A stretch of DNA of 47,110 nucleotides from an uncultured Lachnospiraceae bacterium. GTDB taxonomy: Bacteria; Bacillota; Clostridia; Lachnospirales; Lachnospiraceae. Location of the stretch: positions 1 through 47,110 of the forward strand of contig CANDAG010000030.1 of the NCBI GenBank assembly GCA_947382625.1. The letters run 5' to 3'. Shown here piece after piece: positions 4,050 to 42,408 of the stretch. The position numbers were made by a program, and so were the translations under genes. The notes below the pieces were generated by a model. It was not told the DNA's origin, ran no database searches, and saw nothing but the letters and a program-made list of their open reading frames with translations. Numbering within the stretch: position 1 is the stretch's first letter; each line of letters begins with the position of its first letter.

Positions 4050-4096
4050 CCGTTGTTTGACATAAGGATGGCTGGCGGAGCCTGTCATCCGTTGTT
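4050..4096 (-). repeat. Hairpin repeat A (minus orientation) with truncated second copy
   Basis: One full copy of the dispersed ~38-base repeat lies at 4058-4096 on the minus strand, with the start of a second copy (AAACAACGG) at 4050-4057. Its arms GGATG/CATCC and GGC/GCC form an imperfect hairpin. It begins on the last base of the response-regulator stop codon and fills most of the space before the kinase ribosome site. Over this stretch it is almost identical to copy B1. Confidence 0.85.
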
Positions 4097-5712
4097 TATA
4101 GTCCCCGGAATCTGGTGGGGGATACTCCGAATTTCTTTTTGAAAACATAGCTGAAATAGTTCTGCTCCAGATATCCCACCTTCTGTGCGATCACATAAGT
4201 CTTGTCGTTTGTCTCATTCAAAAGCTCCACCGCCCTGTTTAGTCTCACATCTGTCAGATACGCCACACAGGTCTTGCCGGTTTCCTTTCGGAACATGGTA
4301 GAAAAATATGCCGGACTCATATGGAGCTTGCGGCAGATCATATCCACAGAAAGCTCCGGCTCCTGATAATGCTCCTGGATATACTGCTTTGCCTCCTCGA
4401 TCACCTGCCGTGCAGTATTATCCCGGCGGTGGTTGACAGCCTCATTCATCCGGCCTGCCGCCTGCGCCAGCCATCCGGCAAATTCCTCCTGCTCCTTACT
4501 GCTGCCCAAAAGCTTCATCAATCCCCCGTCCGTATCGAAAACCTGCCGCAGATCCATATCATACTGCTGCATCAGCCGGGTAATGCAATTGACAATAGAA
4601 AGCATATAAACCTGATACTGGCTGGCATGGACTCTGGTATCATCCATCCTTCCGGCCAGCATCCTGACCTCCGCTTCAACAGTTTCGGGCGTCCCGAATT
4701 TGATCTGTGCCTCCAGCTGCGCCTCATCCTTCTGGCTGAGCTGGAGTTTTCCGCGGCTTACAGGCTCCATATCGCCAATATAAATGGTTCCGCCCGTCCC
4801 CACGATCGCCTTATAGCCCAGTGCATCCACCGCCGACTGGTAGGAGTCACTGATCAGCTCCGGGCTCTGGCTGCTGTGCCCCACTCCGATGGTTATGGTT
4901 ACCCCCAAAATCCTTCGGGTTTCCTTACAGATATCCGCAAGAAGGTCAATGAATCCTGTCTGGGTATTCTCCCGGTCGATGGCGGCAATAATGGCAATAC
5001 CACCGGAGGAGTCAAAGCTGATAAACCGGAAATATTCTCTGAGCTGATCCTCCACCAGTCCCCGGACCGACAAGGGGATCAGATTTTTTTGCTCCTGCAG
5101 GGACATGGAGGGCTGCTCCTGTCCCCGGTCCTCTTTTTCCACATTGACCACCGCCGCTATCAGCTTACGGGCATTTAAAATATCCACCCCATATTCCTCC
5201 AGCTGGGGACGCACCTCCTCCTCCGGCACATTTCCCTGCACCAGCTTATTGAGAAAAAGCTCCCGAAGCATGGGCAGACTGCTGTGATACCGCTTCCTGA
5301 GCAGGCTCACATCCCTGCGCTGGGCGATCTCCTCATCCAGGCTTTCCCGTATCCGGCTCAATATCCCCGTCAGCTCCTCCACATTCACAGGCTTAAGGAT
5401 ATACTCGGTAACCCCAAGCTTGATGGCCTGCTGGGCATACTCAAAATCATCGTAGCCTGAGAAGATCAGAACCCTTGTGGACGGGTATTTCTGCCGGATC
5501 CTGCCCGTAAGCGTAAGCCCGTCCATATAGGGCATGCGGATATCGGTCATCACCACATCCGGCTTTAGCTGTTCGATCTTTTCGAGGGCATCCTCCCCGT
5601 TTTCGGCGTCCCCCGCCACCTGGAAGCCCAATCGCTCCCAGTCGATCTGGCGGATGATCCCCTTGCGCACCTCTTCTTCGTCATCTGCCAGAAGAATTTT
5701 ATACAGGCTCAT
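4096..5712 (-). CDS. YesN-type response regulator (receiver plus AraC DNA-binding domain)
   Basis: 538 residues. The N-terminal receiver has the acidic pair at residues 10-12, phospho-acceptor Asp57 in VVMTDIRMP and the conserved Lys in ILKPVN. A long central region follows, and the last ~100 residues form an AraC-type double helix-turn-helix. By family this is the DNA-binding partner of the adjacent YesM-type kinase and activates sugar uptake genes. It is the first gene of the operon, with ribosome site AAGGGA before the ATG. The stop codon abuts hairpin repeat A. Confidence 0.92.
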   Translation of the reverse strand: MSLYKILLADDEEEVRKGIIRQIDWERLGFQVAGDAENGEDALEKIEQLKPDVVMTDIRMPYMDGLTLTGRIRQKYPSTRVLIFSGYDDFEYAQQAIKLGVTEYILKPVNVEELTGILSRIRESLDEEIAQRRDVSLLRKRYHSSLPMLRELFLNKLVQGNVPEEEVRPQLEEYGVDILNARKLIAAVVNVEKEDRGQEQPSMSLQEQKNLIPLSVRGLVEDQLREYFRFISFDSSGGIAIIAAIDRENTQTGFIDLLADICKETRRILGVTITIGVGHSSQSPELISDSYQSAVDALGYKAIVGTGGTIYIGDMEPVSRGKLQLSQKDEAQLEAQIKFGTPETVEAEVRMLAGRMDDTRVHASQYQVYMLSIVNCITRLMQQYDMDLRQVFDTDGGLMKLLGSSKEQEEFAGWLAQAAGRMNEAVNHRRDNTARQVIEEAKQYIQEHYQEPELSVDMICRKLHMSPAYFSTMFRKETGKTCVAYLTDVRLNRAVELLNETNDKTYVIAQKVGYLEQNYFSYVFKKKFGVSPTRFRGL

Positions 5713-5784
5713 GGCACTATTCCCTTCTTAAATCAATAAATTGGGGAAGCTTATGCTGCTCCCTTTCTGTGCTTCGTTTGTATT

Positions 5785-6786
5785 TCATTCTCCGCTCTTT
5801 AGTGAGATCTCATCGATCCTTCTAAGCTCTTCCCGGGTAAACTCTACGCTTCCAAGTACCTTCAGGTTATCCAGGATCTGCCAGGGCTTGGAGGCTCCTA
5901 TAAGAACGCTTGTCACCACCCCGTCCTTAAGGATCCATTTCAGAGCCATCTGGGCCAGGCTCTCTCCCCGTCCCGCCGCGATCTCATTCAACGCCCGGAT
6001 CTGAGCGAGCTTTTCGCTGCTGATCTGGTTTTCCTTCAGGAATCGCCCGTCTGTTTTTACCCGGCTGTCCTCAGGGATCCCGTTCAGATAACGGTCTGTC
6101 AAAAGACCCTGGGCTAAGGGACTAAAGGCAATGATCCCTTTTTTCTTTAAAGCCGCCATATCCTTCAGACCATTATTCTCAATGGTACGGTCAAAAATAC
6201 TATAGCGGTTCTGATTGATCACAAAAGGACATTTTAAATCCTCCAGGATTTCGCAGGCTTTTTCAAGTGCAGGTCCATCATAATTGGACAGCCCTGCGTA
6301 AAGGGCCTTCCCGCTCTTTACTGCCTGATCCAGCGCGCCCATGGTCTCCTCGAGAGGCGTCTCCGGATCCATCCTGTGATGATAAAAAATATCCACATAG
6401 TCAAGGGAAAGTCTCCTTAAGCTCTGGTCAAGGCTTGCCAGCAAGTATTTTCTGCTTCCCCAGTTTCCGTAAGGGCCGTCCCACATCTCATAACCGGCCT
6501 TTGTGCTGATGAGCAGCTCATCCCGATAGCCGGAGAACTCTTCCTTCAGGATCCGCCCAAAATTGGTCTCTGCGCTGCCGGGCTCCGGTCCGTAATTATT
6601 TGCCAGGTCAAAATGGGTGATCCCATGATCAAAGGCAGTAAAGCACAGCTGCTTCATATTATCATAGACCGCCGTGTCCCCAAAATTATGCCACAGCCCC
6701 AGGGATATTTCCGGGAGCTTAAGCCCACTGTCACCGCAACGATGATATTTCATAATTCCGTATCTGTTTCCATCTGCACAATACAT
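5785..6786 (-). CDS. Aldo/keto reductase, YghZ/Gpr-like
   Basis: 333 residues of the aldo-keto reductase superfamily. The catalytic tetrad is visible: Asp60 and Tyr65 (FDLANNYGP), Lys96 (STKAG) and His137 (YHHRMD). GNWGSRKYLLASLDQSL and the ASKPWQI region near the C-terminus match the YghZ (L-glyceraldehyde 3-phosphate reductase) branch, which uses NADPH. It is cytosolic. It lies 33 bases after an AraC regulator on the same strand, so the two are probably co-transcribed and the regulator may control it. The true substrate cannot be told from sequence. Confidence 0.88.
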   Translation of the reverse strand: MYCADGNRYGIMKYHRCGDSGLKLPEISLGLWHNFGDTAVYDNMKQLCFTAFDHGITHFDLANNYGPEPGSAETNFGRILKEEFSGYRDELLISTKAGYEMWDGPYGNWGSRKYLLASLDQSLRRLSLDYVDIFYHHRMDPETPLEETMGALDQAVKSGKALYAGLSNYDGPALEKACEILEDLKCPFVINQNRYSIFDRTIENNGLKDMAALKKKGIIAFSPLAQGLLTDRYLNGIPEDSRVKTDGRFLKENQISSEKLAQIRALNEIAAGRGESLAQMALKWILKDGVVTSVLIGASKPWQILDNLKVLGSVEFTREELRRIDEISLKSGE

Positions 6787-6819
6787 AATTTTACCTCTTT
6801 TCTCTTGATGATTATTGTT

Positions 6820-7635
6820 TTACAGGCTCTCTTTCCCCGCCTTCCCGATGGCCCTTCGGGCATACTCTCCCGGTGTACACCCACAGCAGGCCTTGAAATA
6901 TCTGGTAAAATGAGCCTGATTACGGAAACCGCAAAGCTGCGCAGTCTCCTTTACCTGCAGAGCCTCATTGCTCAACAGATTTTTTGCCTTTTCCAGCCGG
7001 GCATGGAGCAGGTCATTTTTGGGGGACGAGGAAAAGAATTTCCGATAATAAGTATAAAACTGGCTCTTTTCCAGATTCACCCGCCGACAGAGGCTCTCAA
7101 TCTCCCAATTCTTGTGGCAGTCTGTAAGCATTTCCAGACGAAGCTTTTGGAAGGCCGGATAAAAGCTCCCCCCTTCCTCCTCCTGTCTTTCGGTCCTCTG
7201 CATGCTCCGGGCAATCTCAAGGAACATCAGATTGATCAGAGCATCGATAGACTCCTCCCGAAAAGGCAGACGGGAGAAATATTCCTTCTGAAGCCGTGAA
7301 ATATAGGAATCGATCATGACCGGCTCCTCCGGATAAAAAACCTGGTTTTCCGGCAGTCCGAAGAATCCATCCAAAGCTCTGCCATCACCGGGGTTTTCCA
7401 AGCTGAAATGGATATAACTGTTGCAGAATCTGCGCACCGCCTGATAATTCTGAGCATTTCCCGGCGTATAAAGAATACAGGCATTTTCTCTGGTGATCAC
7501 CAGCTGCTTTTCCAGATAAACCTTCATAGGCGTCTTCAGCAAAAGAAACAGATGATCTCCGCTCCCTGCCGGACGATAAATCGTATCATAATCTTGATTG
7601 GAACGGTTGTATTCACAAAAGTTCAAACGGTACAT
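6820..7635 (-). CDS. AraC-family transcriptional regulator with cupin sensor
   Basis: 271 residues. The N-terminal half has the beta-rich, cupin-like pattern of AraC sensor domains (ACILYTPGN, then SYIHFSL), and the last ~100 residues carry two helix-turn-helix motifs ending in QAHFTRYFKACCGCTPGEY. It is divergent from the arabinofuranosidase gene and followed by the aldo-keto reductase, so arabinose or an arabinan sugar is a reasonable ligand, by inference. A GGAGA ribosome site precedes the ATG. Confidence 0.88.
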   Translation of the reverse strand: MYRLNFCEYNRSNQDYDTIYRPAGSGDHLFLLLKTPMKVYLEKQLVITRENACILYTPGNAQNYQAVRRFCNSYIHFSLENPGDGRALDGFFGLPENQVFYPEEPVMIDSYISRLQKEYFSRLPFREESIDALINLMFLEIARSMQRTERQEEEGGSFYPAFQKLRLEMLTDCHKNWEIESLCRRVNLEKSQFYTYYRKFFSSSPKNDLLHARLEKAKNLLSNEALQVKETAQLCGFRNQAHFTRYFKACCGCTPGEYARRAIGKAGKESL

Positions 7636-7695
7636 AAACAGGTCTCCGAAAATCTCTTTAAATATCGGGTAAAAGCAACATGCTATCTATTATCT

Positions 7696-7724
7696 ACCAT
7701 ACAAATAATCGGAAGAAAAGTCAA
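7696..7724 (-). promoter_or_regulatory. Promoter of the AraC regulator gene
   Basis: Minus-strand TTGACT (7719-7724), 17-base spacer and TATGGT (7696-7701), about 60 bases before the AraC start codon. Confidence 0.55.
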
Positions 7725-7744
7725 TCACATCGGAGAAAAAGAGA

Positions 7745-7772
7745 TAGATAAAATCTTCCTGTATCTTATAAT
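7745..7772 (+). promoter_or_regulatory. Possible promoter of the arabinofuranosidase gene
   Basis: A perfect TATAAT (7767-7772) has only a weak -35 candidate, TAGATA (7745-7750), with a 16-base spacer. A poor -35 box would fit an activator-dependent promoter served by the divergent AraC protein. The leader of about 80 bases contains no other recognised element. Confidence 0.4.
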
Positions 7773-7850
7773 ATAAAGCAGACATTAACAGCAGACTGCA
7801 TGTTCGGCGCACAGGCTTTTGCAAAAAGAGCGCCACATTGACAGTAGTAA

Positions 7851-9359
<1,509 letters not shown>

Positions 9360-9371
9360 TACTCTTATACA

Positions 9372-9408
9372 GACAACGGACAGCACGCTTCGCAAGCTGT
9401 CTGTTGTC
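9372..9408 (+). repeat. Hairpin repeat C
   Basis: A 37-base near-perfect palindrome, outer arms GACAAC/GTTGTC and inner arms GACAGC/GCTGTC with a CGCTTCG-type centre. It shares ACAACGGACAGCAC with copy D1 and starts 12 bases after the abfA stop codon. It ends in GTTGTC instead of the usual TTATGT tail. Confidence 0.75.
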
Positions 9409-9453
9409 AGGAAACGCCGTTGCACAGTGAAAAGTACAACGGCGTTTCCTTTT
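9409..9453 (+). terminator. Rho-independent terminator after abfA
   Basis: Perfect 14-base arms AGGAAACGCCGTTG (409-422 of the kilobase) and its complement at 9437-9450 enclose a 14-base loop, followed by a short T tract. It directly follows repeat C. Confidence 0.8.
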
Positions 9454-9503
9454 ACTGACGGGCCCCTTCCAGGGCATAACGGCAATTGCCTCAATGCAGA
9501 TCA

Positions 9504-10568
9504 TCAGACATTCTTTTGTCTTCTGAAATCCATCACCCTATGCCAGTCATCCCTTCCCAGAAAATGAGTCCCCTCTCTTAAATAAAAACCAATATTTCCC
9601 TCCGGATAGGCAGTATCCTCCTTTGGCACTTCCGGACAGACCAGCCCTTTTTGGCCCAGCAATTCATACACAGGACTTGCCGCGATCCCTGCCAAAACCT
9701 GAGAATGAGCATCCGTCCACAAATCCCGGGTTGCGCCTGTCAGATAGACACAGCGAGGCGCCGCCAGTGCAAGCAGAAAATGCATGTCAAAGGGCAGATC
9801 CTCCGCATCCCTGTCATCCCGGAACAGATCAGGGCAAAACCAGTGCCGGGTATAATCCCGGGCCAGATCCCGGAAGCTCTCTGCAGCAGACCTCCGGTAA
9901 AAGCTTCCGGAATTCACTCCCACAGAAAGAGAAAATCTCTCATCCATGGCACCGCACCACAAGGCGGTCAGCCCTAAACGGGAATGTCCGATCACGGCGA
10001 TCCGGGAATGATCAAGCTCCGGCATCTCCTGCAAGCAGTCCATGATCCTGCCGGCTCCATAGGCCCACACCCCGATCTTTCCCCATCTGTCTCCCCGGCA
10101 TTCTCTGTCAAAGCCGCACACTCCCGCAAATAACTCTTCGCTGTTATCCGGGGCAATATCCTGATAACAGACATGGGCTAATGCGAAGCCGTTGTCAATG
10201 ATCTCTTCCCCAAGACCGCCTCCCGGCTGTTCGTTAAAATGAAGATGCAGAAAAACAGGAAAGGGATCTTCTCCCGCTTTCGGAATGATCACCCGAAAGG
10301 GAAACTCACAGGAAATCTCCTCTTTCTTAAGCGTGATCAGATAGCTTCTCCCCACAGCCTTTCCCCCATAGGCGTCCTTATCCTCTCCTGTGAGCCTGTA
10401 AGTCATGGAAATATTTTCAGGCTCACTCCCCATATATTCCCTCCGCAAAAGCTGCCTGATCTCTTCCCGGCGTCTGCTCCAGTCCTTTGCATCCTTCACA
10501 GGAGCAGAATCCGCAAAGCGCAGAAGCTCCGGGAGCTTACGCAGATCTATCTCTTCTTTTAAAGTCAT
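9504..10568 (-). CDS. CE15-like glucuronoyl esterase / alpha-beta hydrolase
   Basis: 354 residues from the ATG at 10568. The nucleophile motif IGHSRLG (Ser196), the following ALWCGAMDERF, the LAAPRCVYLTGATRDLWTD segment and the late His335 in REGTHFL match carbohydrate esterase family 15, whose members split the ester between lignin alcohols and glucuronic acid on xylan. No signal peptide is seen, which is unusual for acting on polymer and suggests small imported esters. A longer TTG start (10598) would run through the ribosome site. With the GH51 enzyme it points to xylan side-chain processing. Confidence 0.75.
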   Translation of the reverse strand: MTLKEEIDLRKLPELLRFADSAPVKDAKDWSRRREEIRQLLRREYMGSEPENISMTYRLTGEDKDAYGGKAVGRSYLITLKKEEISCEFPFRVIIPKAGEDPFPVFLHLHFNEQPGGGLGEEIIDNGFALAHVCYQDIAPDNSEELFAGVCGFDRECRGDRWGKIGVWAYGAGRIMDCLQEMPELDHSRIAVIGHSRLGLTALWCGAMDERFSLSVGVNSGSFYRRSAAESFRDLARDYTRHWFCPDLFRDDRDAEDLPFDMHFLLALAAPRCVYLTGATRDLWTDAHSQVLAGIAASPVYELLGQKGLVCPEVPKEDTAYPEGNIGFYLREGTHFLGRDDWHRVMDFRRQKNV

Positions 10569-10598
10569 GTTTTTACCGCCCTTTCTCCTTTTGCTCAA

Positions 10599-10627
10599 AG
10601 TATAGCTTGTTTTATTGTTAAATGCAA
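10599..10627 (-). promoter_or_regulatory. Promoter of the CE15-like gene
   Basis: Minus-strand TTGCAT (10622-10627), 17-base spacer, TATACT (10599-10604), about 30 bases before the ATG at 10568. Confidence 0.7.
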
Positions 10628-10725: not shown

Positions 10726-10755
10726 GTCAACTATATCTATTGGGGAATGTGCCTA

Positions 10756-10812
10756 AACAACGGACAGCACACTTCGCGAACTGTCCTTATGTCAACAACG
10801 GATGTCAGGCTT
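10756..10812 (+). repeat. Hairpin repeat doublet D1 plus truncated D2
   Basis: D1 (10756-10793) is a full copy with CTTCGCGA centre. D2 starts exactly 38 bases later and keeps only its first 19 bases. The D1/D2 junction, 10784-10811, is identical over 28 bases to the B1/B2 junction at 30214-30241. The doublet sits in the 5' leader of the next gene. Confidence 0.85.
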
Positions 10813-10844
10813 CCCCATTTACCAGGCACAGAAAGGAGCTTCTC

Positions 10845-11903
10845 TTGGAATTTCAACCATTAAATATAAGAAACAAAACTGCCCGCATCCCTATCGTACA
10901 GGGCGGAATGGGCGTGGGCGTCAGCAGGAGCCGCTTAGCTGGCGCTGTGGCGAAGGCCGGCGGCGTAGGGATCATTTCCAGCGCACAGATCGGATACGAC
11001 GAACCTGATTTTGAAAAGGACGTCCGGGGCTGCAATCTCCGTGCCATCGAAAAGCACGTAAAGCTTGCAAAGCAACAGGCAAAAGGCGGTCTTGTAGGGG
11101 TCAACGTCATGGTGGCCTTACAGCATTATGAGGATCATGTGCGGGCTGCCGTCAGAGCCGGTGCCGACCTTGTGGTGTGTGGCGCCGGACTTCCCACTAC
11201 TCTGCCGGAGCTTGTGGGGGACTCCGATACCGCCATCGTCCCTATTGTATCCAGCAGAAAGGCAGCATCCCTGCTTCTTCGTATGTGGGACAAAAAATAT
11301 CAGAGAACCGCAGATATGATCGTAGTGGAAGGCCCCTTAGCCGGCGGCCATCTGGGATTTTCACCGGAGCAGCTTGCAGATATTCCGGCACTTAAGTATG
11401 ACCGGGAGATCAAAGAAATCATAGAAGAAAAGAAGTTTTTTGAAAATAAATACGGGACTTATATCCCTGTGGTGGCAGGCGGCGGTATCTCGGATCACTC
11501 TAAAGTCCGCCATATCATGGAGCTGGGCGCCGACGGGGTACAGGTGGCCACCCGCTTTGTGGCAACGGAAGAATGCGACGCCTCCCCTGCCTACAAGCAG
11601 GCTTACATAGAGGCCTCTGCCGAGGATGTGACCATCATCAAAAGTCCGGTGGGTATGCCGGGACGGGCCATCAGAAACAAATTCATCCGCCGCGCCGGGC
11701 AGGGACAGATTCCTGTCAGCCGGTGCTTTGGATGCATTAAGAAATGTGATCCCGCAAAGATCCCCTACTGCATCACTCAGGCGCTGGTCAATGCGGTTAA
11801 GGGAGATCTGGACAATGGCCTGATCTTCTGCGGAGCCAATGTGGGTTCGATCCGTGAAATCACTACGGTAGATCAACTGATCAGAGAGTTGATGGGGAGC
11901 TGA
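10845..11903 (+). CDS. FMN-dependent nitronate monooxygenase / FabK-like enoyl reductase
   Basis: 352 residues of the NPD/2-nitropropane dioxygenase TIM-barrel family. Visible marks are IVQGGMGVGVS near the N-terminus, GLPTTLPEL, VVAGGGISD and GADGVQVATRFVATEE (FMN phosphate site), and a C-terminal KKCDPAKIPYC cysteine segment typical of clostridial members. The reaction is either oxidation of nitronates or reduction of enoyl-ACP; the two cannot be separated here. I chose the TTG at 10845, six bases after AAAGGAG. A longer ORF from 10740 would translate the hairpin repeats and is rejected. Single-gene transcript. Confidence 0.85.
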   Translation: MEFQPLNIRNKTARIPIVQGGMGVGVSRSRLAGAVAKAGGVGIISSAQIGYDEPDFEKDVRGCNLRAIEKHVKLAKQQAKGGLVGVNVMVALQHYEDHVRAAVRAGADLVVCGAGLPTTLPELVGDSDTAIVPIVSSRKAASLLLRMWDKKYQRTADMIVVEGPLAGGHLGFSPEQLADIPALKYDREIKEIIEEKKFFENKYGTYIPVVAGGGISDHSKVRHIMELGADGVQVATRFVATEECDASPAYKQAYIEASAEDVTIIKSPVGMPGRAIRNKFIRRAGQGQIPVSRCFGCIKKCDPAKIPYCITQALVNAVKGDLDNGLIFCGANVGSIREITTVDQLIRELMGS

Positions 11904-11910
11904 TTGAATC

Positions 11911-11944
11911 CAACGCGGTCACGCTACGTGAGCCAGCTGATTGA
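11911..11944 (+). repeat. Hairpin repeat E (CTACGTGAG centre)
   Basis: A diverged copy of the second repeat subtype (compare H2): CAACGCGGTCACGCTACGTG, then AGCCAGCTGATTGA. It starts eight bases after the stop codon of the preceding gene and directly precedes the terminator. Confidence 0.65.
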
Positions 11945-11950
11945 TTGAAA

Positions 11951-22774: not shown

Positions 22775-22803
22775 ATTATAAACAGTATCCCCTATTGCCA
22801 CAA
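22775..22803 (-). promoter_or_regulatory. Promoter of the LytTR/GHKL operon
   Basis: Minus-strand TTGTGG (22798-22803), 17-base spacer, perfect TATAAT (22775-22780). Confidence 0.65.
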
Positions 22804-22842
22804 TCTTTTTTCAGAGACAAAAAGCAGGAATTGAAGGACAGA

Positions 22843-22872
22843 TTGGATTTTATCCCTCCGTCACAATATAAT
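22843..22872 (+). promoter_or_regulatory. Promoter of the ABC exporter operon
   Basis: TTGGAT (22843-22848), 18-base spacer, perfect TATAAT (22867-22872), about 55 bases before the ATG at 22927. I found no clear pair of LytTR direct repeats upstream. Confidence 0.6.
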
Positions 22873-22926
22873 ATATATGTTGATACAAAATCCCTCATAA
22901 ACATACAATTGCCAAGGAGGATTTCA

Positions 22927-24816
22927 ATGAAAAAGATACCCAAAAAATCCGGAGCTGCCGGACGGACCATCCGAAACAACCTGTACATTATGGGATTTGC
23001 CTGGCGCATCTGCCCGGAGCGGGTGTTATGCTGCGGCGTCTATTTCGGTCTGGATCACTTTGAATATCTGTTTTTTTCGGGCTTTTTTATGAAAAAGGTA
23101 CTCTCCCTGATCGAAACAGGAGGAAGTCTGAAAGAGATTTTTACCTTTATCGGGCTTACTGCGGCACTGTTTTTGCTCATATTTCTCTTTAACGGGTGGT
23201 ATCAGAATCTTCTGGTGCCAGTCACTGACGTGAAGGTTTATCAGGGACTTTATCGCACCTTATATGAAAAAGCCGGGAATGACGATCTGGCCTGCTTTGA
23301 AAACAGCGATTTTTATAATAAATATATGCTTGCCATGGCGGACAGCAACGAAAGGCTGATCCGGACCATCGATAATATCTGGAGTATCCTCATCGGAACT
23401 GCGGCAGTGGCAATCTCCTGGATGATGCTGATCCGCATTGACCGATGGGTGCTGCTTTTTGTGGCAGGTCCCATTATCGGGAATTTTGTCTTTGCCCGTG
23501 CCCTGAACAAGCTTGCCTACCGGATCTATGAGGAGTCCATGGTTTTTCGCCGGATCGCCGATTATGTGAACCGGGTCATCCATCTGTCCGACTATGCCAA
23601 AGAGCTTCGCATGACCAATATTTTTCATGTGATGGAAAAAAAGCAAAAGGACGCCGAGGCCGGTGTCACCGGAACTATGGATAAATACATGGCCAAAAAT
23701 ATCCTGCTGGGATGGGGATATCTTTATTTTACCTTTGTGGTGATCTTTGAGGGCGTGATCTTTTACGGAGCCTACCGGACTCTGGTATCTCACGCCATGC
23801 CATTATCTGACTTTGCAGTCCTCACCACCTTAATGACCTCTGTGTCATGGATCCTGATCGGTTACACAAAAGCCCTGCTGGAGAGCATGAAAAACAGTCT
23901 GTTTATCCAGAATCTGAAGGATTTCCTCTCCTATGAGCCCACTATTCCCGAAGACTGGGAGGGCGTCATGCCAGAAAAGGAGGTGCGCAGCATAGAATTC
24001 CGCAATGTAAGCTTTGCCTACCAGCCGGAAAGGATGACGCTGAAAAACATCAGCTTTACCTTAAAGGAGGGAGAGGCCTGTGCCCTGGTAGGTTACAATG
24101 GCGCCGGAAAATCCACGCTGATCAAGCTCCTGCTCCGTCTCTACGACCCCACAGAGGGAGAAATCCTCCTAAACGGCGTTAACATCAGGGATTATAACCT
24201 GAAGGCCTACCGGAGCCTTTTCGCCACAGCCTTTCAGGACGGAAAGATCTTCGCCCGCAGCGTCAGAGAGAACCTGCTCATGGGACAAGATAACCCCCAA
24301 ACGGGGACGGAGCTCTGGAAGGCCCTTTCCATGGCCGGGATTGATTCTGTCATCAAAGCTTCCGCAAACGGCATGGACCAGATCCTGACCCGGGAATTTG
24401 ACCCGGAGGGCGTCATCCTCTCCGGCGGCCAGACACAGAAGCTGGTGTCCGCAAGAGCCTTTGCAAAGGATGCTCCCGTACAGATCTTTGACGAGCCCTC
24501 CAGCGCCCTGGATCCTATTGCAGAGCATGAATTGATGGAAAACATCAAACGTTGCCACGCTTCGCGAGCCGGCTTATTGACCAGGCGCTGCCACACGCCT
24601 CAGGACGATTCGGGGCGGATCCTTCTGCTGATCTCCCACAGGCTTTCCTCCGTGCAGGATATGGAAAAGATCATTGTCCTTAAAAACGGACGGATCACGG
24701 AGCAGGGAACCCATGCCGCTCTTATGGAAGCGGACGGGGAATACGCCGCTCTTTACCGGATGCAGGCAGAGCAATATAAAATCGACAGACTGATGAAAGG
24801 AGAACCGGCCTTATGA
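22927..24816 (+). CDS. ABC exporter half-transporter with in-frame repeat insertion
   Basis: 629 residues from the ATG preceded by AAGGAGG. An N-terminal six-helix exporter domain is followed by an ATPase: Walker A GYNGAGKS near 389, signature LSGGQ near 498, Walker B IFDEPSSALD near 520, H-loop His571 (ISHRL). Between the D-loop helix and the H-loop strand, residues 543-561 form an extra loop encoded by hairpin repeat F; the sister subunit has only about five residues there. No C39 peptidase domain. It pairs with the next gene (4-base overlap) as a heterodimer; the cargo is unknown. Confidence 0.9.
   Translation: MKKIPKKSGAAGRTIRNNLYIMGFAWRICPERVLCCGVYFGLDHFEYLFFSGFFMKKVLSLIETGGSLKEIFTFIGLTAALFLLIFLFNGWYQNLLVPVTDVKVYQGLYRTLYEKAGNDDLACFENSDFYNKYMLAMADSNERLIRTIDNIWSILIGTAAVAISWMMLIRIDRWVLLFVAGPIIGNFVFARALNKLAYRIYEESMVFRRIADYVNRVIHLSDYAKELRMTNIFHVMEKKQKDAEAGVTGTMDKYMAKNILLGWGYLYFTFVVIFEGVIFYGAYRTLVSHAMPLSDFAVLTTLMTSVSWILIGYTKALLESMKNSLFIQNLKDFLSYEPTIPEDWEGVMPEKEVRSIEFRNVSFAYQPERMTLKNISFTLKEGEACALVGYNGAGKSTLIKLLLRLYDPTEGEILLNGVNIRDYNLKAYRSLFATAFQDGKIFARSVRENLLMGQDNPQTGTELWKALSMAGIDSVIKASANGMDQILTREFDPEGVILSGGQTQKLVSARAFAKDAPVQIFDEPSSALDPIAEHELMENIKRCHASRAGLLTRRCHTPQDDSGRILLLISHRLSSVQDMEKIIVLKNGRITEQGTHAALMEADGEYAALYRMQAEQYKIDRLMKGEPAL
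24547..24602 (+). repeat. Hairpin repeat F inside an ABC transporter gene
   Basis: Bases 24556-24580 are identical over 25 positions to copy H2 at 42384-42408, including the CTTCGCGAG centre and the TTATTGA tail. A partial second copy (GCTGCCACACGCC) may follow at 24586-24598. The insert keeps the reading frame and adds about 17-19 codons without a stop. Confidence 0.85.
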
Positions 24817-30185: not shown

Positions 30186-30261
30186 AACAACGGATGACAG
30201 GCTCCGCCAGCCATCCTTATGTCAACAACGGATGTCAGGCTCCGCCAGCCATCCTTATGTT
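30186..30261 (+). repeat. Hairpin repeat doublet B1-B2
   Basis: Two full copies in direct tandem, 38 bases each (30186-30223 and 30224-30261), differing at a few positions. Each has GGATG/CATCC and GGC/GCC arms and a TTATGT tail. They are the best-preserved doublet in the window. The 314 bases from 30110 to 30423 hold nothing else certain apart from copy B3. Confidence 0.92.
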
Positions 30262-30361: not shown

Positions 30362-30400
30362 TAACATAAGGATAACTCGCGGAGCATGTTATCCGTTGTT
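30362..30400 (-). repeat. Hairpin repeat B3, inverted relative to B1-B2
   Basis: A full copy on the minus strand (AACAACGGATAACATGCTCC, then GCGAGTTATCC and TTATGTTAA). Both arms carry matching changes (GGATAAC/GTTATCC), so the hairpin is kept although the sequence differs. It ends 23 bases before the ABC transporter start. Confidence 0.88.
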
Positions 30401-36122: not shown

Positions 36123-37137
36123 ACCTATCCCTCACATCGTTATTATTGTAGATATCACAGATGATTTTTTGTATTTTCAAGGCTTCTCTGCCGCTGATCT
36201 GAAGCGGCTCAAGTCCTGCTACAGCCTGATAGAATTGATTTATCTGCACAGCGTGTTGTGTTCCCCAGTAGGACTTTCCACCACTGTATGATACAATTTT
36301 CTGAGGGCTGTTAGTTACCGTTTCAACCGTGCCGTCGTTATAATTTATCACAGCCTCATCATAGGAAAGCCGCACAGTTCCGTTTTCACAAACAAGACGT
36401 ATCTCGATAGGCTCGTCCACCGAATAATTGTTCATGGCATAAAACCCGAAGATACACCCGTTTTCGTATTCTATCAGACCCTCCGCGCTATCTTCCACTG
36501 TCATTATCTTATGTTTTCTGTTATGCAGAGAAGACTGCACCTTTACGGGCGTACTGTCAATAAACCAATTGGCAAGGTCGAGGGAGTGTATTGCCTGATC
36601 GATGATAACACCGCCGCCCTCCTTGTCCCATGTGCCTTTCCAATCGGAGCTGCTGTAGTAATTATCGGAACGGCACCATGTCAGCACACTTCTGCCGCAC
36701 CTGACAGCTCCCAGCCTGCCGTCGGTTATTCTTTCTTTTACCAGCATGGAAGGCGTATTATACCGGCACTGGAAAATAACTCCGTACAGTACACCGAGCT
36801 GTTCCGCCAGTTCCACCGCTTCCACAGCCTCATCATAACGTATGCTCATTGGCTTTTCACTCAGCACGTGTATACCTGCACGAAATGCATCACAGGCGAC
36901 GGCCGTATGAAGATAGTGCGGCAGACAAAGGTGCACTGCGTCAGGCTTTTCCTTTTTAAACATTTCCCTGTAATCCGTATACGCTGATGTGCTATAGCTT
37001 TCTGCCACAGCCTGCACTTTGTCTTTCTTGATGTCACAAACTCCCACAAGCCGTACTTCGTCCAGCGCATTGACAGAATCCAGATGCATTACCGAAATAT
37101 TTCCACAACCGATAACAGCCGCTCTGATTTTTTTCAT
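36106..37137 (-). CDS. Gfo/Idh/MocA family oxidoreductase (first of two)
   Basis: 343 residues. The Rossmann start RAAVIGCGNISVMHLDSV binds NAD(P); VLSEKPMS carries the conserved Glu-Lys-Pro, and GVIIDQAIHSLDLANWF is the substrate-side motif with the catalytic His. It oxidises or reduces a sugar or cyclitol; the substrate is unknown. A GAGGAGG ribosome site precedes the ATG. It is the first gene of the minus-strand half, divergent from the isomerase. Confidence 0.9.
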   Translation of the reverse strand: MKKIRAAVIGCGNISVMHLDSVNALDEVRLVGVCDIKKDKVQAVAESYSTSAYTDYREMFKKEKPDAVHLCLPHYLHTAVACDAFRAGIHVLSEKPMSIRYDEAVEAVELAEQLGVLYGVIFQCRYNTPSMLVKERITDGRLGAVRCGRSVLTWCRSDNYYSSSDWKGTWDKEGGGVIIDQAIHSLDLANWFIDSTPVKVQSSLHNRKHKIMTVEDSAEGLIEYENGCIFGFYAMNNYSVDEPIEIRLVCENGTVRLSYDEAVINYNDGTVETVTNSPQKIVSYSGGKSYWGTQHAVQINQFYQAVAGLEPLQISGREALKIQKIICDIYNNNDVRDRYVGCV

Positions 37138-37365
37138 TAACTTGTGTTCCTCCTCACTTACAGGACTGAAAGGACTGTATTTTTATGAATTTATTGTACC
37201 ATATCTTAATTATTATACAGTTATATTATTTTGCTTTCCTTTTGTAAAATATTATCTTTTGCAAAACGTAAATATTCTACAATGAAGAGTTTAATTTTTC
37301 TATTTCACGCCAACATTTTTGTTTTAATATATTATCAATAAAACTTATATAGGGAGGTATTTTTA

Positions 37366-38202
37366 ATGAAAATAGGAACTTGCGTTTCCTTTTCCTCAAT
37401 GGATGGAATGGATGAAAAACTGGCAGTTCTACGCGAAAACCATTTCTTTTCTTGTCAACTTATATCTTGGAATCCCAATGCATGGACAGATGAAAACGCA
37501 ACTACATTAAAACTGCTGTTTGAAAAATATGGTATTACTGTTTCAGCATTCTGGTGTGGCTGGGAGGGTCCCTGTGAGTGGAACTTTTATACGGGACAGC
37601 TAACTTTGGGGCTTGTACCGCCTTGTTACCGCACCGTGCGAATAAAAAATCTCTGCGATGGCGCTGACTTTGCCCTGAAGCTCGGGGTCGTCGATGTAAT
37701 AACTCATATGGGCTTTATTCCCGAAAATCCGTACGACCCCAATTTCAGCAGCTTTTGTGTTGCAGTAAAGCAGGTGGCACAGCATTTAAAGACAAACGGT
37801 CAGTATCTGCTGTTTGAAACAGGTCAGGAGACCCCTGTAACTATGCTGCGATGCTTTGAAACTGTAGGCTGCGATAATCTCGGTATCAATTTAGATACTG
37901 CAAACCTTATCCTTTATGGCAAGGCAAATCCTGTAGACGCGCTTGATGTGTTTGGGAAATATGTCAGAAACCTTCATGCCAAGGACGGCTGTTACCCTGT
38001 CAACGGCCATGATCTGGGCTGTGAAACCTGCATTGGTGACGGCAAGGTGGATTTTAGGGGGGTATTCAAAAAGCTGCACGAACTGGGCTACAATTCGCAT
38101 GTGACGATAGAACGTGAGATAAAGGGTGGCCAACAGATAGCCGATATACTGGAATCAAGAGAGTACCTTCAAAAAATTATTGATGAAATTTATGGCAAAT
38201 AA
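37366..38202 (+). CDS. Sugar phosphate isomerase/epimerase-like TIM barrel
   Basis: 278 residues of the xylose-isomerase-like/AP endonuclease 2 superfamily. Metal-ligand positions are visible in YLLFETGQE (Glu), NLGINLDTANL (Asp), VRNLHAKD (His) and VTIEREIKG (Glu). Members isomerise or epimerise keto-sugars or inositol derivatives. GGGAGG precedes the ATG. It is followed after 21 bases by a second Gfo/Idh enzyme. Codon use is AT-richer than in the genes outside the cassette. Confidence 0.85.
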   Translation: MKIGTCVSFSSMDGMDEKLAVLRENHFFSCQLISWNPNAWTDENATTLKLLFEKYGITVSAFWCGWEGPCEWNFYTGQLTLGLVPPCYRTVRIKNLCDGADFALKLGVVDVITHMGFIPENPYDPNFSSFCVAVKQVAQHLKTNGQYLLFETGQETPVTMLRCFETVGCDNLGINLDTANLILYGKANPVDALDVFGKYVRNLHAKDGCYPVNGHDLGCETCIGDGKVDFRGVFKKLHELGYNSHVTIEREIKGGQQIADILESREYLQKIIDEIYGK

Positions 38203-38223
38203 AAATGCCGGAAAGGATAAAAA

Positions 38224-39168
38224 ATGTTAAAGATTGGTTTGGTAGGCGTCGGCGGTATAAGCGGCGAGCATATCCCTGTATGGGAAGCTATGGAGAACGT
38301 GGAGTTATCAGCAATATGTGATATTCGTACTGAGCGTATGGAGCGTTATCCCGAAAAACACAGATATACAGACTTCAATGAAATGTTGGAAAAAGAGGAT
38401 ATTGATATTTTGGACATCTGCCTGCCTACTTATTTGCACGCGGATTTTGCTGTCAACGCTATGGAAAAGGGTATACATGTAATATGCGAGAAGCCCGTTT
38501 CTTTAAAGAAAGAAGATGTGGATCGTGTTTATTCAGTTGCACAGAAGATGAACGTTAAATTTATGGTTGCTCAGGTACTGCGGTTCTGGCCTGAATATGA
38601 ATTAATAAAAGAAATTTACGATACGGGAAAATATGGAATGCTTCTATCAGGCTATATGAACCGTCTTGGAACGTGTCCGAAATGGAGCTGGGATAACTGG
38701 ATGAAAGATCCTCTCCGCAGCGGCCTTGTTCCTTACGACCTGCACGTACATGACCTGGATTTTATGATATATGCGTTCGGTCAACCTATAAGTATGCAAA
38801 GCCACCGTTCAAAAAGACCCGAACAGGACTATATCAGTGCAATATACAATTACGAGGATTTTTTTATTACTGCCGAAGCCGCCTGGTATGCTGCTCCGAT
38901 GCCATTCAACGCAGGTTTCCGTTTTCAATTTGAAGAGGCTCTTATCACCTATGTTGACGGCAAATGCATTGCCTATCAAAATGACAACACGATACTTGAT
39001 CTATCATTGGGAGAAGTTGGCGGATCAGGTTCTCTCAATCTGCCAAGGACAAATGCTTACGCCAATGAAATACACTATTTTACAGACTGCGTTCTAACAG
39101 GAAAATTCCCCGATAAGATAAGGCCTGCGGAGCTTGAAACAGTGATTGGTATATTAAACGAGATATAA
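38224..39168 (+). CDS. Gfo/Idh/MocA family oxidoreductase (second of two)
   Basis: 314 residues, slightly short for the family. It begins LKIGLVGVGGISGEHIPVW (NAD site), has ICEKPVSL, and the catalytic segment GLVPYDLHVHDLDFMIYAFG. Downstream of the isomerase, it may carry out the second redox step of an oxidise-isomerise-reduce route on a sugar. The annotated end is close to where the IS256 remnant begins, so a lost C-terminal tail is possible. Confidence 0.87.
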   Translation: MLKIGLVGVGGISGEHIPVWEAMENVELSAICDIRTERMERYPEKHRYTDFNEMLEKEDIDILDICLPTYLHADFAVNAMEKGIHVICEKPVSLKKEDVDRVYSVAQKMNVKFMVAQVLRFWPEYELIKEIYDTGKYGMLLSGYMNRLGTCPKWSWDNWMKDPLRSGLVPYDLHVHDLDFMIYAFGQPISMQSHRSKRPEQDYISAIYNYEDFFITAEAAWYAAPMPFNAGFRFQFEEALITYVDGKCIAYQNDNTILDLSLGEVGGSGSLNLPRTNAYANEIHYFTDCVLTGKFPDKIRPAELETVIGILNEI

Positions 39169-39243
39169 GTGCGCAAAACAATTCTCTGCTAAATTCTTTC
39201 GGTTTCGAAAAAAAATGCGCAGGATTTTCAAATTTGTAATGAT

Positions 39244-39412
39244 TCACTTGCAAATGGGCAGGTAGAGCCGTCTTTTCTGGTTCTGCCCTGTCCATTTTTT
39301 TGATATCCATCATCGCCGGGTACAGTATCTTTAACAGCTTCTTGTCCATAGAAAATACACTCTTTGATTTCGTTACCTTCCTCTGCCTGCATTTTACTTT
39401 CCCTACCGTCAC
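39244..39412 (-). pseudogene. Remnant of IS256/Mutator-type transposase C-terminus
   Basis: On the minus strand the frame reads QRKVTKSKSVFSMDKKLLKI then LYPAMMDIKK; after a one-base shift it continues KWTGQNQ and soon hits TGA. This matches the C-terminal segment of IS256-family transposases (LLK-LYLA-MDITKKWTG). Only about 55 codons remain, with a frameshift and no upstream part, so it is dead. It lies at the right edge of the AT-richer cassette and directly against the YolD-like gene. Confidence 0.6.
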
Positions 39413-39843
39413 ACCTCCTCTATCTCCACAATCTTATCCATACCAATCCTCTCCCCGCCCTTAAAAATCAGCATCCGCTCACATACATCCACTCTTTTGA
39501 GCTGCCCTGTAACCGTAACATAAGCGCCTCCATCCTTCCTCTCATCCGGCTGAAAATAGGTAACCGCAACCTCCGGCGTCTCTCCGCCCGGCATCTGAAG
39601 CATCTGCAGCCTTTCCAGTTTTTCATCCAGAAATACTCTGGCATCCTCCTCCAGCTCCGCTCTGCTGTCGGTGAGACGGCCGGTTTCCCGGATGGCATCC
39701 TCAAACCCTGTAAGAGCGGCAAAAGGAGAAAACTGCGCTGCTCTCTCAGCCACCGGCATTGGCGCATGAACGGTGGATACATGGTGGGGAAGATGGATAA
39801 TATCATCATAGCGGTGTTTGTCCTGAGTATTGCTTTTTTTCAT
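39409..39843 (-). CDS. YolD-like protein, partner of the Y-family polymerase
   Basis: 144 residues from the ATG at 39843, preceded by AGGAGG. The segment AERAAQFSPFAALTGFEDAI is the hallmark of clostridial YolD-like proteins that sit behind UvrX-type polymerases; the C-terminal half is a beta-rich YolD domain. It is thought to assist or regulate the polymerase, but the mechanism is not established. It begins 97 bases after the polymerase stop, so it is probably on the same SOS transcript. Confidence 0.82.
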   Translation of the reverse strand: MKKSNTQDKHRYDDIIHLPHHVSTVHAPMPVAERAAQFSPFAALTGFEDAIRETGRLTDSRAELEEDARVFLDEKLERLQMLQMPGGETPEVAVTYFQPDERKDGGAYVTVTGQLKRVDVCERMLIFKGGERIGMDKIVEIEEV

Positions 39844-39940
39844 ATTCAACCTCCTCGTATAGGATAGGAAGCACATTGATGCGTGATCGATCATAAGAAA
39901 TCCAACATCTTCGATGAGTCCCTCCTTGCGACATATGCGG

Positions 39941-41521
39941 TTACGCCTTATGTCCGCCAATCTGCCGGTTCCTCTCTAAGGTCATCGCTCCCTTCTCAAG
40001 ATTCATGCCCTTCAGGATGGCATTTTTGCCATATTTCTTTTTGATGTCCAGCATGGCCTTCTGCACCCTTTTCTCCTTCTCCCGTTCTGCCGCTTCCTCT
40101 TCCTTTTGCCTCTGCAACGCTTCATAATCAGTAAAGAGATCCAACTGTTCAAAAGTAACGCTCTCGGAGACCTCACCTTCTGCCGCCACATGATTGGCAG
40201 TGACATAAACCCGTCTGACGAAAAGCGTGGAATCTACAATCCGCTCATAAAGTGCTGTGACGGCATCTAAAATTTCCTTCGTGGAAGATGTCGGCCTTCC
40301 AAGATTGGCGGTTCCATGGGCATGCTTCGGAATCCTTCTGCCATAAGGGTCTGTAGTGACAGGCCCTTTATAGCTTTTTCTGATCTTCGGGTCGGAAAGG
40401 CTTTCCCTGTCGTAACCTACGGTCAGCACCATCTGGTCTGTCACCAGGCCTTTGTCAACCAGATCCAGTACCAACAGATCCGTCATCTCCCGCACAATCA
40501 GCTTTGCCTTTTCAAAGCTGTAGGGGCAATGCAGTACCTGTCCGGAGCCCACACTGCTGCTCTCAGGCTTATAGGCCTTCACATCTGCAATGGTACATGG
40601 CTCCCATCCCCATGCATGGTCGATGAGAAGCTGGGCATTTATGCCAAACAGCCTATAAAGGAGGTCTTCATTATAATAATCTCTATTTTTCCCAAGAGAA
40701 CACCTTGCCACATCCCCCATAGTAAAGAGCCCGTTTTCTTCCAGCTTCCTGGCATAGCCTCTGCCAATCCGCCAGAAATCGGTAAGAGGACGATGGTCCC
40801 ACAAAAGCCTGCGGTACGTCATCTCATCCAGCTCTGCAATCCTCACCTCGCCCTCATCCGTGGTCACATGCTTCGCCACAATATCCATGGCAACCTTACA
40901 AAGATACAGATTAGTACCGATCCCTGCCGTGGCCGTAATTCTGGTCTCTTCAAAAACCTCTCCTATGATCTTCCGGGCCAGCTCCCGGGCACTTAGCCGG
41001 TAAGCTCCCAGATAGGCTGTAACATCCATAAACACCTCGTCGATAGAATAAACATGGATATCCTCCGGTGCCACATATTTCAAATAAATATGATAGATTC
41101 TGGTGCTGTAGTCCATATATAGAGCCATTCTCGGAGTTGCCGTAATATAGGAAACGGAAAGCTCCGGCTGATGCTTTAGCTCTTCGCTGTCACAGGAATC
41201 TCCTGCGAAGGTATATCCCGGCACAGTTTGTCTGCGCAGGGCATTCACCTCCCTGATCTTCTGCACCACTTCAAAAAGCCTTGCCCTGCCAGAAATACCA
41301 TAGGCTTTCAGGGAAGGTGACACCGCAAGGCAGATGGTCTTTTCCGTGCGGCTTTTATCCGCAACCACAAGGTTAGTGGTAAGCGGATCCAACCCCCGCT
41401 CCACACACTCTACGGAAGCGTAGAAGGATTTCAGATCTATTGCGATATAAACATGCTGCTTCTGGGGTACAGTCTTATTGTTCTCTGATAAATCGGAAGC
41501 CGTTGCCTTTGACGAGCCCAT
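39941..41521 (-). CDS. Y-family translesion DNA polymerase, UvrX/DinB-like
   Basis: 526 residues from the ATG at 41521, preceded by AAGGAGAGG. Palm-domain catalytic motifs are YIAIDLKSFYASVECVE (first Asp) and YSIDEVFMDV (Asp-Glu pair); a helix-hairpin-helix and little-finger domain follow, and the C-terminal ~60 residues are a charged coiled coil. It copies past DNA lesions at low fidelity. The upstream ATG at 41572 overlaps the -10 box, so it cannot be the start. Expression should be under LexA. Confidence 0.92.
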   Translation of the reverse strand: MGSSKATASDLSENNKTVPQKQHVYIAIDLKSFYASVECVERGLDPLTTNLVVADKSRTEKTICLAVSPSLKAYGISGRARLFEVVQKIREVNALRRQTVPGYTFAGDSCDSEELKHQPELSVSYITATPRMALYMDYSTRIYHIYLKYVAPEDIHVYSIDEVFMDVTAYLGAYRLSARELARKIIGEVFEETRITATAGIGTNLYLCKVAMDIVAKHVTTDEGEVRIAELDEMTYRRLLWDHRPLTDFWRIGRGYARKLEENGLFTMGDVARCSLGKNRDYYNEDLLYRLFGINAQLLIDHAWGWEPCTIADVKAYKPESSSVGSGQVLHCPYSFEKAKLIVREMTDLLVLDLVDKGLVTDQMVLTVGYDRESLSDPKIRKSYKGPVTTDPYGRRIPKHAHGTANLGRPTSSTKEILDAVTALYERIVDSTLFVRRVYVTANHVAAEGEVSESVTFEQLDLFTDYEALQRQKEEEAAEREKEKRVQKAMLDIKKKYGKNAILKGMNLEKGAMTLERNRQIGGHKA

Positions 41522-41570
41522 ACCTGTCCTCTCCTTCCCCGGTCTGATAATCTTTTCTTCTGCGAAATTC

Positions 41571-41599
41571 ATTATATCAGAACTTATGTTCGATTTCAA
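41571..41599 (-). promoter_or_regulatory. SOS promoter with LexA box for the polymerase operon
   Basis: Minus-strand TTGAAA (41594-41599), exactly 17 bases, TATAAT (41571-41576). Inside the spacer lies CGAACATAAGTTCT (41579-41592), a 1-mismatch match to the Gram-positive LexA site CGAAC-N4-GTTCG. LexA bound there would block polymerase directly. Confidence 0.88.
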
Positions 41600-41654
41600 T
41601 ATCAAAGAATAAATTTCGCCCTTTTCAGCAGAGTACGGTTATCAAACAAAATAT

Positions 41655-41683
41655 TTGCCCATTCCCCCGCCCCGTTATATAAT
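41655..41683 (+). promoter_or_regulatory. Promoter of the nitroreductase gene
   Basis: TTGCCC (41655-41660), 17-base spacer, TATAAT (41678-41683). The start point near 41690 puts repeats G1 and G2 in the mRNA leader. Confidence 0.65.
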
Positions 41684-41693
41684 TATTATGGAA

Positions 41694-41769
41694 AACAACG
41701 TACTGCACGCTTTGCGAACAGCCTTTATGTTAAACAAGGAGCGGCACGCTTCGCGGGCTCTCTTCATGC
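41694..41769 (+). repeat. Hairpin repeat doublet G1-G2 in the nitroreductase leader
   Basis: G1 (41694-41731) and G2 (41732-41769) are two direct copies at 38-base spacing, of the CTTCGCG-centre subtype and more diverged than B1-B2. They fill most of the leader between the promoter and the ribosome site. Confidence 0.8.
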
Positions 41770-41799
41770 AAAGCAAATCATAACAGGAGGAAAACACCC

Positions 41800-42330
41800 A
41801 TGAACAACATAATTGAAGCAATCCAAAAACGCAGTTCCACCAGAGGCTACACAGCCGAGCCTCTGACAGATGCGGAATTGAATACCCTGATCCAGTCCGG
41901 CCTGCAGGCGCCTACCGCCGCCAACCGCCAGGAGATCCATTTCACCGTATTAAAGGGCGACAATTCCCTTTTAAAGGAGCTCGAGGACGAAAAGAACCGC
42001 CTGCGGGAAATCGTAAACCCGCCCCACAATTTTTACTATGAAGCTCCCACGGTAGTCATCATCAGCGCCGACAGTACCTACAAATGGGGCTCCTTAGACG
42101 CCGGCATCGCCGTGGAAAATATGGCTCTTGCGGCGGAAGGACTTGGACTGGGAAACCTGATCATCGGCTGTATTGACGATGCCATCAAGGGCGAAAAACA
42201 GGAATATTTCTCAAATGCCCTGCATTTTCCTGAAAATTATGAATATAAGATCGCCATTGCCTTCGGACACAAGGCCGTAACCAAAGAGCCCCATACCTAC
42301 AGCGAGGAGGTACAGGTTACCCGTCTGTAA
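41800..42330 (+). CDS. Nitroreductase-family FMN protein
   Basis: 176 residues, the short form of the family. The FMN-binding start IQKRSSTRGYTAEPL has the family's R-S-x-R motif, followed by GLQAPTAANRQEIHF; the C-terminal half has DAGIAVENMALAAEGLGLG. It reduces nitro compounds, quinones or flavin; the native substrate is unknown. Acts as a cytosolic homodimer in this family. AGGAGG precedes the ATG. The gene is flanked on both sides by repeat doublets (G1-G2 and H1-H2). Confidence 0.9.
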   Translation: MNNIIEAIQKRSSTRGYTAEPLTDAELNTLIQSGLQAPTAANRQEIHFTVLKGDNSLLKELEDEKNRLREIVNPPHNFYYEAPTVVIISADSTYKWGSLDAGIAVENMALAAEGLGLGNLIIGCIDDAIKGEKQEYFSNALHFPENYEYKIAIAFGHKAVTKEPHTYSEEVQVTRL

Positions 42331-42332
42331 AA

Positions 42333-42408
42333 AACAACGGGTGACAGGCTTTGCCAGTCACCCTTATGTTAATCAAACGCCGTCACGCTTCGCGAGCCGG
42401 CTTATTGA
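42333..42408 (+). repeat. Hairpin repeat doublet H1-H2
   Basis: H1 (42333-42370) starts two bases after the nitroreductase stop codon and is the GGCTTTGCC-centre subtype with a TTATGTT tail. H2 (42375-42408) is the CTTCGCGAG subtype and shares 25 identical bases with copy F inside the ABC transporter gene. The two subtypes thus occur side by side. Confidence 0.88.

Follow-up and report, generated by a model that had tools for sequence, protein, structure and literature searches.

What is the short hairpin that recurs along this stretch of DNA, and how does it spread? The stretch (hereafter the window, 47,110 nt) is contig C30 of the 4.18-Mb genome of an uncultured Lachnospiraceae bacterium, assembled in 113 contigs and 88% complete. 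The answer we favor, at a probability of roughly one half, is that the repeat is a hairpin akin to repetitive extragenic palindromic (REP) sequences, which enters T-tracts of the lagging-strand template as single-stranded DNA and is moved by an HUH-like enzyme.

The hairpin repeat is real and not a product of chance. A strict pattern (up to 3 mismatches) was found at 101 places in the host genome versus none for the reversed control, and a looser pattern gave 149 matches versus one. Eight subfamily consensi, with up to 10 mismatches, recovered 92 units in 412,053 host bases and none in the reversed sequence. This host sample stems mostly from contigs already known to contain copies, including the window, and scaling by the looser pattern (45 hits in the sample, 149 genome-wide) gives an estimate of around 300 units for the host. 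A search with a covariance model of 18 units, as suggested by the original prediction, found at least 144 places in the genome, which is well over 20; this number is a floor because only 150 candidates were scored per genome, in the host as in the genus.

The home of the repeat is one Parablautia-like Lachnospiraceae genus, and beyond it the repeat is rare. Matches with an E-value of 1e-3 or better occur in 27 of the 37 genomes of this genus, the highest numbers being 137, 117, 108, 91 and 91 out of 150 scored candidates; ten genomes have none. Outside the genus, 2 of 297 genomes of a family sample match (carrying 1 and 3 units), and in a class sample the host is the only match (1 of 391); both searches used strict filters and around 20 scored candidates per genome, so low-copy relatives may be missed. 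The units in other Lachnospiraceae genera, one good match in G212:C9:171591 (L372) and three in G220 (L373, L375, L377), were possibly acquired via horizontal transfer. A pattern scan of named genomes returned at least 92 stretches; Parablautia intestinalis D8-82, Lachnospiraceae bacterium 10-1, UBA7199 and further Lachnospiraceae records are among the matches listed. Also among these are the metagenome-assembled genome records JAMPGV01 and JAMPHU01 (L236, L289 and others), which hold the repeat several times and are titled Muribaculum sp. and Gastranaerophilales; these titles are probably wrong labels. Viral contigs searched with one exact pattern yielded no match.

Each unit is one imperfect hairpin, reading AACAACGG...CCTTATGTT on one strand and AACATAAGG...CCGTTGTT on the opposite strand, with near-inverted repeats TTAACATAAGG/TTAAACAACGG as its ends. 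Two families can be distinguished. Family I (38-40 nt) follows the plan AACAACGG-stem-CCTTATGTTAA and repeats at 38-39 nt, and family II (36 nt) follows ATCAAACG-stem-GCTTATTGAT, repeating mostly at 36 nt, i.e., 12 codons. In a set of 292 distinct units, chosen by likeness to the consensi and therefore leaning towards structure, 12 of the 14 modelled pairs are each present in 72% of the units or more, and an A.A mismatch between paired stem blocks is kept in 209. Column pairs 1-38 (paired in 66%) and 12-26 (32%) are weak. The word TTAT adjoins the stem at the hairpin foot, with ATAA on the opposite (ACATAAGG) strand, in 269 of the 292. A near-perfect hairpin AACGCTGTCACGC..GTGGCAGCGTT, resembling a symmetric family II unit, adjoins an array at L102 and L165 (genomes G003 and G004).

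Pairing is maintained by covariation across the family. The outer pairs change jointly, occurring as AACA/TGTT, as ATCA/TGAT and, in other species, as ACCA/TGG. In 18 units hand-picked to be diverse, the covariation score reaches 0.327 versus a shuffled mean of 0.126, a value that none of 500 shuffles attains, and slid partners give at most 0.124; the number of pairs with two-sided change (6 versus 5.2) is not unusual by itself. The matching arm changes of copy B3, put forward in the original prediction as a sign of selection for the hairpin, are confirmed: ATAAC/GTTAT replaces ATGNC/GNCAT, and pairing is kept family-wide.

The dispersed family of about 13 copies that had been proposed for the window is there in full, with far more copies genome-wide. 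All 13 were located at, or within 3 nt of, their predicted positions; 11 are full-length, D2 is 3'-truncated and G2 is strongly decayed.

Copy A: 4057 to 4096, minus strand; family I unit, 58.8 bits.
Copy C: 9372 to 9410, plus strand; variant unit after the open reading frame (ORF) 7860-9359, 34.0 bits.
Copy D1: 10756 to 10792, plus strand; family I unit of the CAG/CTG stem subtype, 54.0 bits.
Copy D2: 10794 to 10817, plus strand; 3'-truncated family I unit, head-to-tail with D1.
Copy E: 11908 to 11944, plus strand; family II unit, 38.1 bits.
Copy F: 24544 to 24580, plus strand; family II unit in frame within the ABC-transporter ORF 22795-24816, encoding IKRCHASRAGLLT.
Copy B1: 30186 to 30222, plus strand; family I unit.
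Copy B2: 30224 to 30260, plus strand; family I unit, head-to-tail with B1, 61.6 bits.
Copy B3: 30364 to 30400, minus strand, opposite to B1 and B2; family I unit of the ATAAC/GTTAT stem subtype, 58.4 bits.
Copy G1: 41694 to 41730, plus strand; family I unit upstream of the nitroreductase-family ORF 41800-42330, 46.9 bits.
Copy G2: 41733 to 41772, plus strand; head-to-tail with G1, 11 mismatches, partial match of 11.4 bits.
Copy H1: 42333 to 42369, plus strand; family I unit 2 nt past the end of ORF 41800-42330, 59.4 bits.
Copy H2: 42372 to 42408, plus strand; family II unit, head-to-tail with H1.

Copy A lies between an AraC-type response-regulator gene (4096-5712, minus strand), whose TAA stop (4096-4098) overlaps the first base of the unit, and a histidine kinase gene, the start of which is probably downstream of the unit. 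Copy C has the tail TTGTC in place of TTATGT and is a symmetric variant, akin to the near-perfect hairpin beside the arrays at L102 and L165. A nitronate monooxygenase-like ORF (10740-11903) ends 4 nt before copy E. Copy F, placed within a gene, means that the window copies are not exclusively extragenic. On the 3' side of copy H2, A-rich sequence is followed by what reads by eye as a terminator-like hairpin. Compared with genome G036, the corresponding intergenic stretch has no unit at the site of copy B1, the unit is absent at the site of copy G1 (none is seen in the aligned G033 stretch either), and different units are present at the site of copy H. No Rfam family matches the window at gathering score, and a 351-base array stretch gave one sub-threshold Rfam match and none at gathering score.

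The units are mobile, as single or double blocks are present or absent between related species. Mobility is seen at seven loci in total. Clean absences at corresponding sites amount to 42 nt between G002 and G001, 40 nt between L283 and L257, and 39 nt as well as a 76-nt double between G004 and G003. Three further insertions are in frame within genes. The CorC_HlyC-family gene of G006 has 39 nt (13 codons) more than those of G001 and G002; a host glycosyltransferase-like gene has 72 nt, comprising two 36-nt family II units, relative to G010 (G030 has an unrelated shorter stretch at this site); and the host ABC-transporter gene has 51 nt around copy F that are missing from the G036 and G030 orthologues, with a partly similar stretch in the orthologue of G034. 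Of 22 G004 units compared with G003 over around 362 and 389 kb, three, at two sites, have a clean absence in G003, and an array lacks one more; the others are shared, untidy or without paired flanks. One 40-mer is common to eight of the 20 G004 places read, which were taken from the top matches, and one of these eight is also present in G003. For a unit in a methionine synthase-like gene, the linker is hypervariable among 30 aligned orthologues and offers no clean empty site.

The frame is open on both sides at 13 of the 227 sites with enough flank. Further in-frame units occur in an MBOAT acyltransferase, in DUF6512, FTSW_RODA, Penicillinase_R and DUF4832 proteins, and in others; a 96-aa ORF adjoining a Peptidase_M24 gene has its C-terminal tail encoded by another unit. 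All 13 frames are in sense and all carry the poorer-folding strand in sense. Some of them may be chance, and as stops are more frequent on the other strand, open frames favor this sense.

No target duplication is evident at the seven compared insertions, and a TA duplication was not seen at L283/L257. This bears on the idea that the units are miniature inverted-repeat transposable elements (MITEs) of a DDE insertion sequence, formed by the fusion of two short terminal inverted repeats. The near-inverted repeat ends TTAACATAAGG/TTAAACAACGG would suit such an origin, yet pairing is kept as far as the loop, duplications are not evident, and no autonomous insertion sequence sharing the terminal repeats was recognised. 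Full units also number 350 versus 29 half-units, none of which was recognised, by eye, as the end of a longer, split-ended parent element. We consider a MITE origin highly improbable.

The arrangement of the units suggests stepwise accumulation. In the host sample, the 92 units occupy 63 sites (41 single, 15 double and 7 triple). Neighbors within 60 nt are head-to-tail in all 29 cases, with no inverted doublets; between 60 and 150 nt, two pairs are inverted and one is direct. Subtypes are mixed in 12 of the 22 multi-unit sites, pointing to insertion next to units already in place and not to the copying of an array. All four gene contexts are represented among 45 intergenic host sites (17, 11, 9 and 8). 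Many units stand directly past stop codons or adjoin terminator-like hairpins; in the 11 convergent contexts, a median of 2 nt separates the end of the upstream gene from the unit. The TAA stop of an upstream gene can be completed by the first base of the unit, both in the window and at several host sites. The genes near some G003 units are ordinary in appearance. At L340 (16298-16337; G003:C1:1422298), a unit common to G003 and G004 lies between the genes for ribosomal proteins S11 and S4.

The flanks of the units are asymmetric. Across 272 distinct flank sites, pooled from many genomes such that orthologous sites may count twice, an A-run lies on the CCTTATGT side at 68% versus 21% on the opposite side, and folding of -10 kcal/mol or lower is found for 60% of the CCTTATGT flanks, 19% of the opposite flanks and 27% further away. 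On the ACATAAGG strand, units therefore stand directly 3' of a T-tract, which often belongs to a terminator-like hairpin. This strand is also the better DNA fold in 251 of 292 units (136 of 300 in a random control), and A.C cells that turn into G.T on it number 230, versus 90 of the opposite kind. Its orientation is biased with respect to GC skew: the ACATAAGG strand is on the G-rich strand, and the AACAACGG strand on the C-rich one, at 85 of 122 sites (p = 1.6e-5). The bias holds between convergent or divergent neighbors (33 of 48 sites; p = 0.013), and where both neighbors run against the skew, the orientation follows the skew rather than the genes at all seven sites. The ribosomal-protein genes of L340 are on the G-rich strand, as expected if the G-rich strand is leading in sequence and hence the lagging-strand template.

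Folded single strands, head-to-tail arrays, an AAC/GTT outer stem and strand bias are likewise reminiscent of the attC sites of integrons. The units might then be folded sites of the attC type, acted on by a tyrosine recombinase like that of integrons. Unlike the fixed core of attC, the GTT of the repeat varies jointly with its partner, becoming GAT or GGA, and the sites are dispersed; we regard this alternative as highly improbable. TTATGTTAA has a putative likeness to a XerD arm.

Single-strand insertion in the manner of IS200/IS605 elements or REPs (PMC6006769) would suit the combination of a foot-word hairpin, no evident duplication, a T-rich target, strand-specific folding and an orientation bias. 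In this model, the ACATAAGG strand would be active as single-stranded DNA. It is the better-folding strand, has ATAA at its hairpin foot and is found mostly on the lagging-strand template. Cuts at the covarying outer pairs (AACA/TGTT, ATCA/TGAT and ACCA/TGG) would be made in trans by an HUH-like enzyme or another that reads hairpins, which would then join the unit 3' of a T-tract. For the host, new stop codons, untranslated-region hairpins and 13, 17 or 24 extra residues in proteins would be side effects. A bolder version of this reading, which we put forward only tentatively, is that the repeat represents a new class of mobile DNA, the whole element being a single hairpin of 36-40 nt without a link to Y1 transposases, inserting single-stranded at lagging-strand-template T-tracts, often past terminators. 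The mover would be some other enzyme or the replication enzymes alone, and the 36-nt (12-codon) lineage would be adapted to in-frame sites.

A number of observations weigh against single-strand insertion. The fold asymmetry may be partly due to strand-specific C-to-T change. Taken by themselves, the host (22 of 38), family II (20 of 34) and convergent sites (21 of 33) show no significant strand bias, and since genes run with the GC skew at 116 of 122 sites, replication and transcription are hard to separate. ATAA is only mildly enriched in the target flank (24% versus 15% in shuffled sequence), so guide-target pairing is at most putative, and apart from an A, the left flanks of family I lack a fixed word. 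Some insertions have edges blurred by A-runs, and several site comparisons are untidy. In co-directional contexts, moreover, the better-folding strand is sense at 40 of 66 sites (17 versus 8 in the host sample), which an RNA function predicts likewise. The hairpins could thus mainly be selected RNA elements, protecting 3' ends or acting as terminator partners, with spread being rare and accidental. The many units directly after stop codons or beside terminator-like hairpins and the unit between the S11 and S4 genes point the same way. Opposed to this are the presence of all four gene contexts, an orientation that tracks skew rather than genes at the seven sites with against-skew neighbors, the poorer-folding strand lying in sense in every in-gene unit, and the differences in unit presence between close species. 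Overall, a mainly RNA-based role appears quite unlikely to us.

The search for the moving enzyme also weighs against our reading, as neither the PF01797 search nor clustering of neighboring ORFs found a mover. Among 1230 ORFs near 330 sites, no transposase was recognised in the 25 largest clusters, judged from fragments. The PF01797 (Y1) genes do not track the units: they are found in 21 of the 37 genus genomes, namely in 9 of the 15 with at least 20 unit matches and in 12 of the 22 with fewer. The repeat might nonetheless be a canonical REP family, moved by a REP-associated tyrosine transposase (RAYT) or an IS200-type Y1 transposase that was missed or lost. An irregular hairpin with a foot word, the lack of evident target duplication, the strand bias, the Y1 genes in over half of the genus genomes and a weak unit match in 2 of 30 loci around Y1 genes are in line with this. 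Yet NCBIfam assigns each of the ten scanned Y1 domains to IS200/IS605; below its cut-off, the RAYT model is matched by eight of them as well, but not by the other two. Furthermore, seven genomes with 18-91 unit matches (G003, G004, G021, G030, G031, G034 and G036) have no PF01797 match, a negative result that is limited to genes PF01797 detects and by genome completeness (100% for G003, and 98, 97, 94, 88, 78 and 59% for the others).

In the host itself, the absence of a RAYT-type gene from the window, as originally described, holds, since the sole PF01797 match of the genome sits on another contig. This gene is IS200/IS605 by NCBIfam and lies in L031 (G000:C99), where positions 132-1304 hold what we take to be an IS605-type element, with tnpA and a tnpB-like frame split over two ORFs. 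The idea of a Y1 gene flanked by the same hairpin failed here, as no unit was found in the 2.7-kb locus. With no tracking, unit-rich genomes free of PF01797 and a host Y1 locus without a unit, RAYT/Y1 is not supported as the mover, and we think a canonical REP family unlikely.

The likeness to REPs and to REPINs, which consist of inverted REP pairs, is accordingly partial: of the resemblance first suggested, the REP-like hairpin stands, and classical membership fails on tag, arrangement and transposase. As described in parts of PMC3116915 and PMC6006769, REPs and REPINs with RAYT are likewise short hairpins in hundreds of copies, mostly intergenic, with a tetranucleotide at the hairpin foot and likely movement as a single strand. 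REPs are defined by a GTAG/GTGG tetranucleotide 5' of the hairpin foot (a passage of PMC6006769); the repeat lacks this tag (GTAG in none and GTGG in one of 292 units, both strands) and has ATAA as foot word on the ACATAAGG strand. Its close neighbors are head-to-tail instead of inverted, its outer stem pairs covary, no RAYT was found, and single units, rather than an inverted REP pair, are found as insertions.

CGTC-tagged REPs, which according to sections of PMC3733652 also occur in Rickettsia and Wolbachia, are alike in having no known dedicated transposase and some copies within genes. Since the repeat shares these traits, it looks like a further, untagged REP class: CGTC (0), TGTC (1) and CCTC (0) are essentially missing from the 292 units. 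Its host is a Lachnospiraceae bacterium, and the words Firmicutes and Clostridi- are absent from the main text of PMC3733652. Rickettsia palindromic elements, as portrayed in part of PMC10969869, are palindromic repeats in frame within unrelated protein genes, a trait shared by the in-frame minority of our sites; at around 150 bp, they differ from the repeat, which is 36-40 nt, mostly intergenic and found in Lachnospiraceae. The ends of IS200/IS605 elements (PMC6006769, in part) are imperfect hairpins with a foot word and target the lagging-strand template, and the ATAA of the repeat is comparable to the guide words of these ends and of REPs. Unlike IS200/IS605, the repeat has no linked tnpA/tnpB, and one hairpin is the entire element. 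The original prediction gave no described name for the family, and no description of it was found in the open-licence literature searched.

According to PMC3733652, Proteobacteria are the main hosts of tagged REPs, and the CGTC class has no known mover. The present repeat belongs to mouse-gut Lachnospiraceae, with species pairs that show clean empty sites and a named host strain, Parablautia intestinalis D8-82. With clean empty sites, a named strain and no Y1 link, the movement of transposase-less REPs becomes testable, and the in-frame copies provide natural examples of short insertions into conserved proteins.

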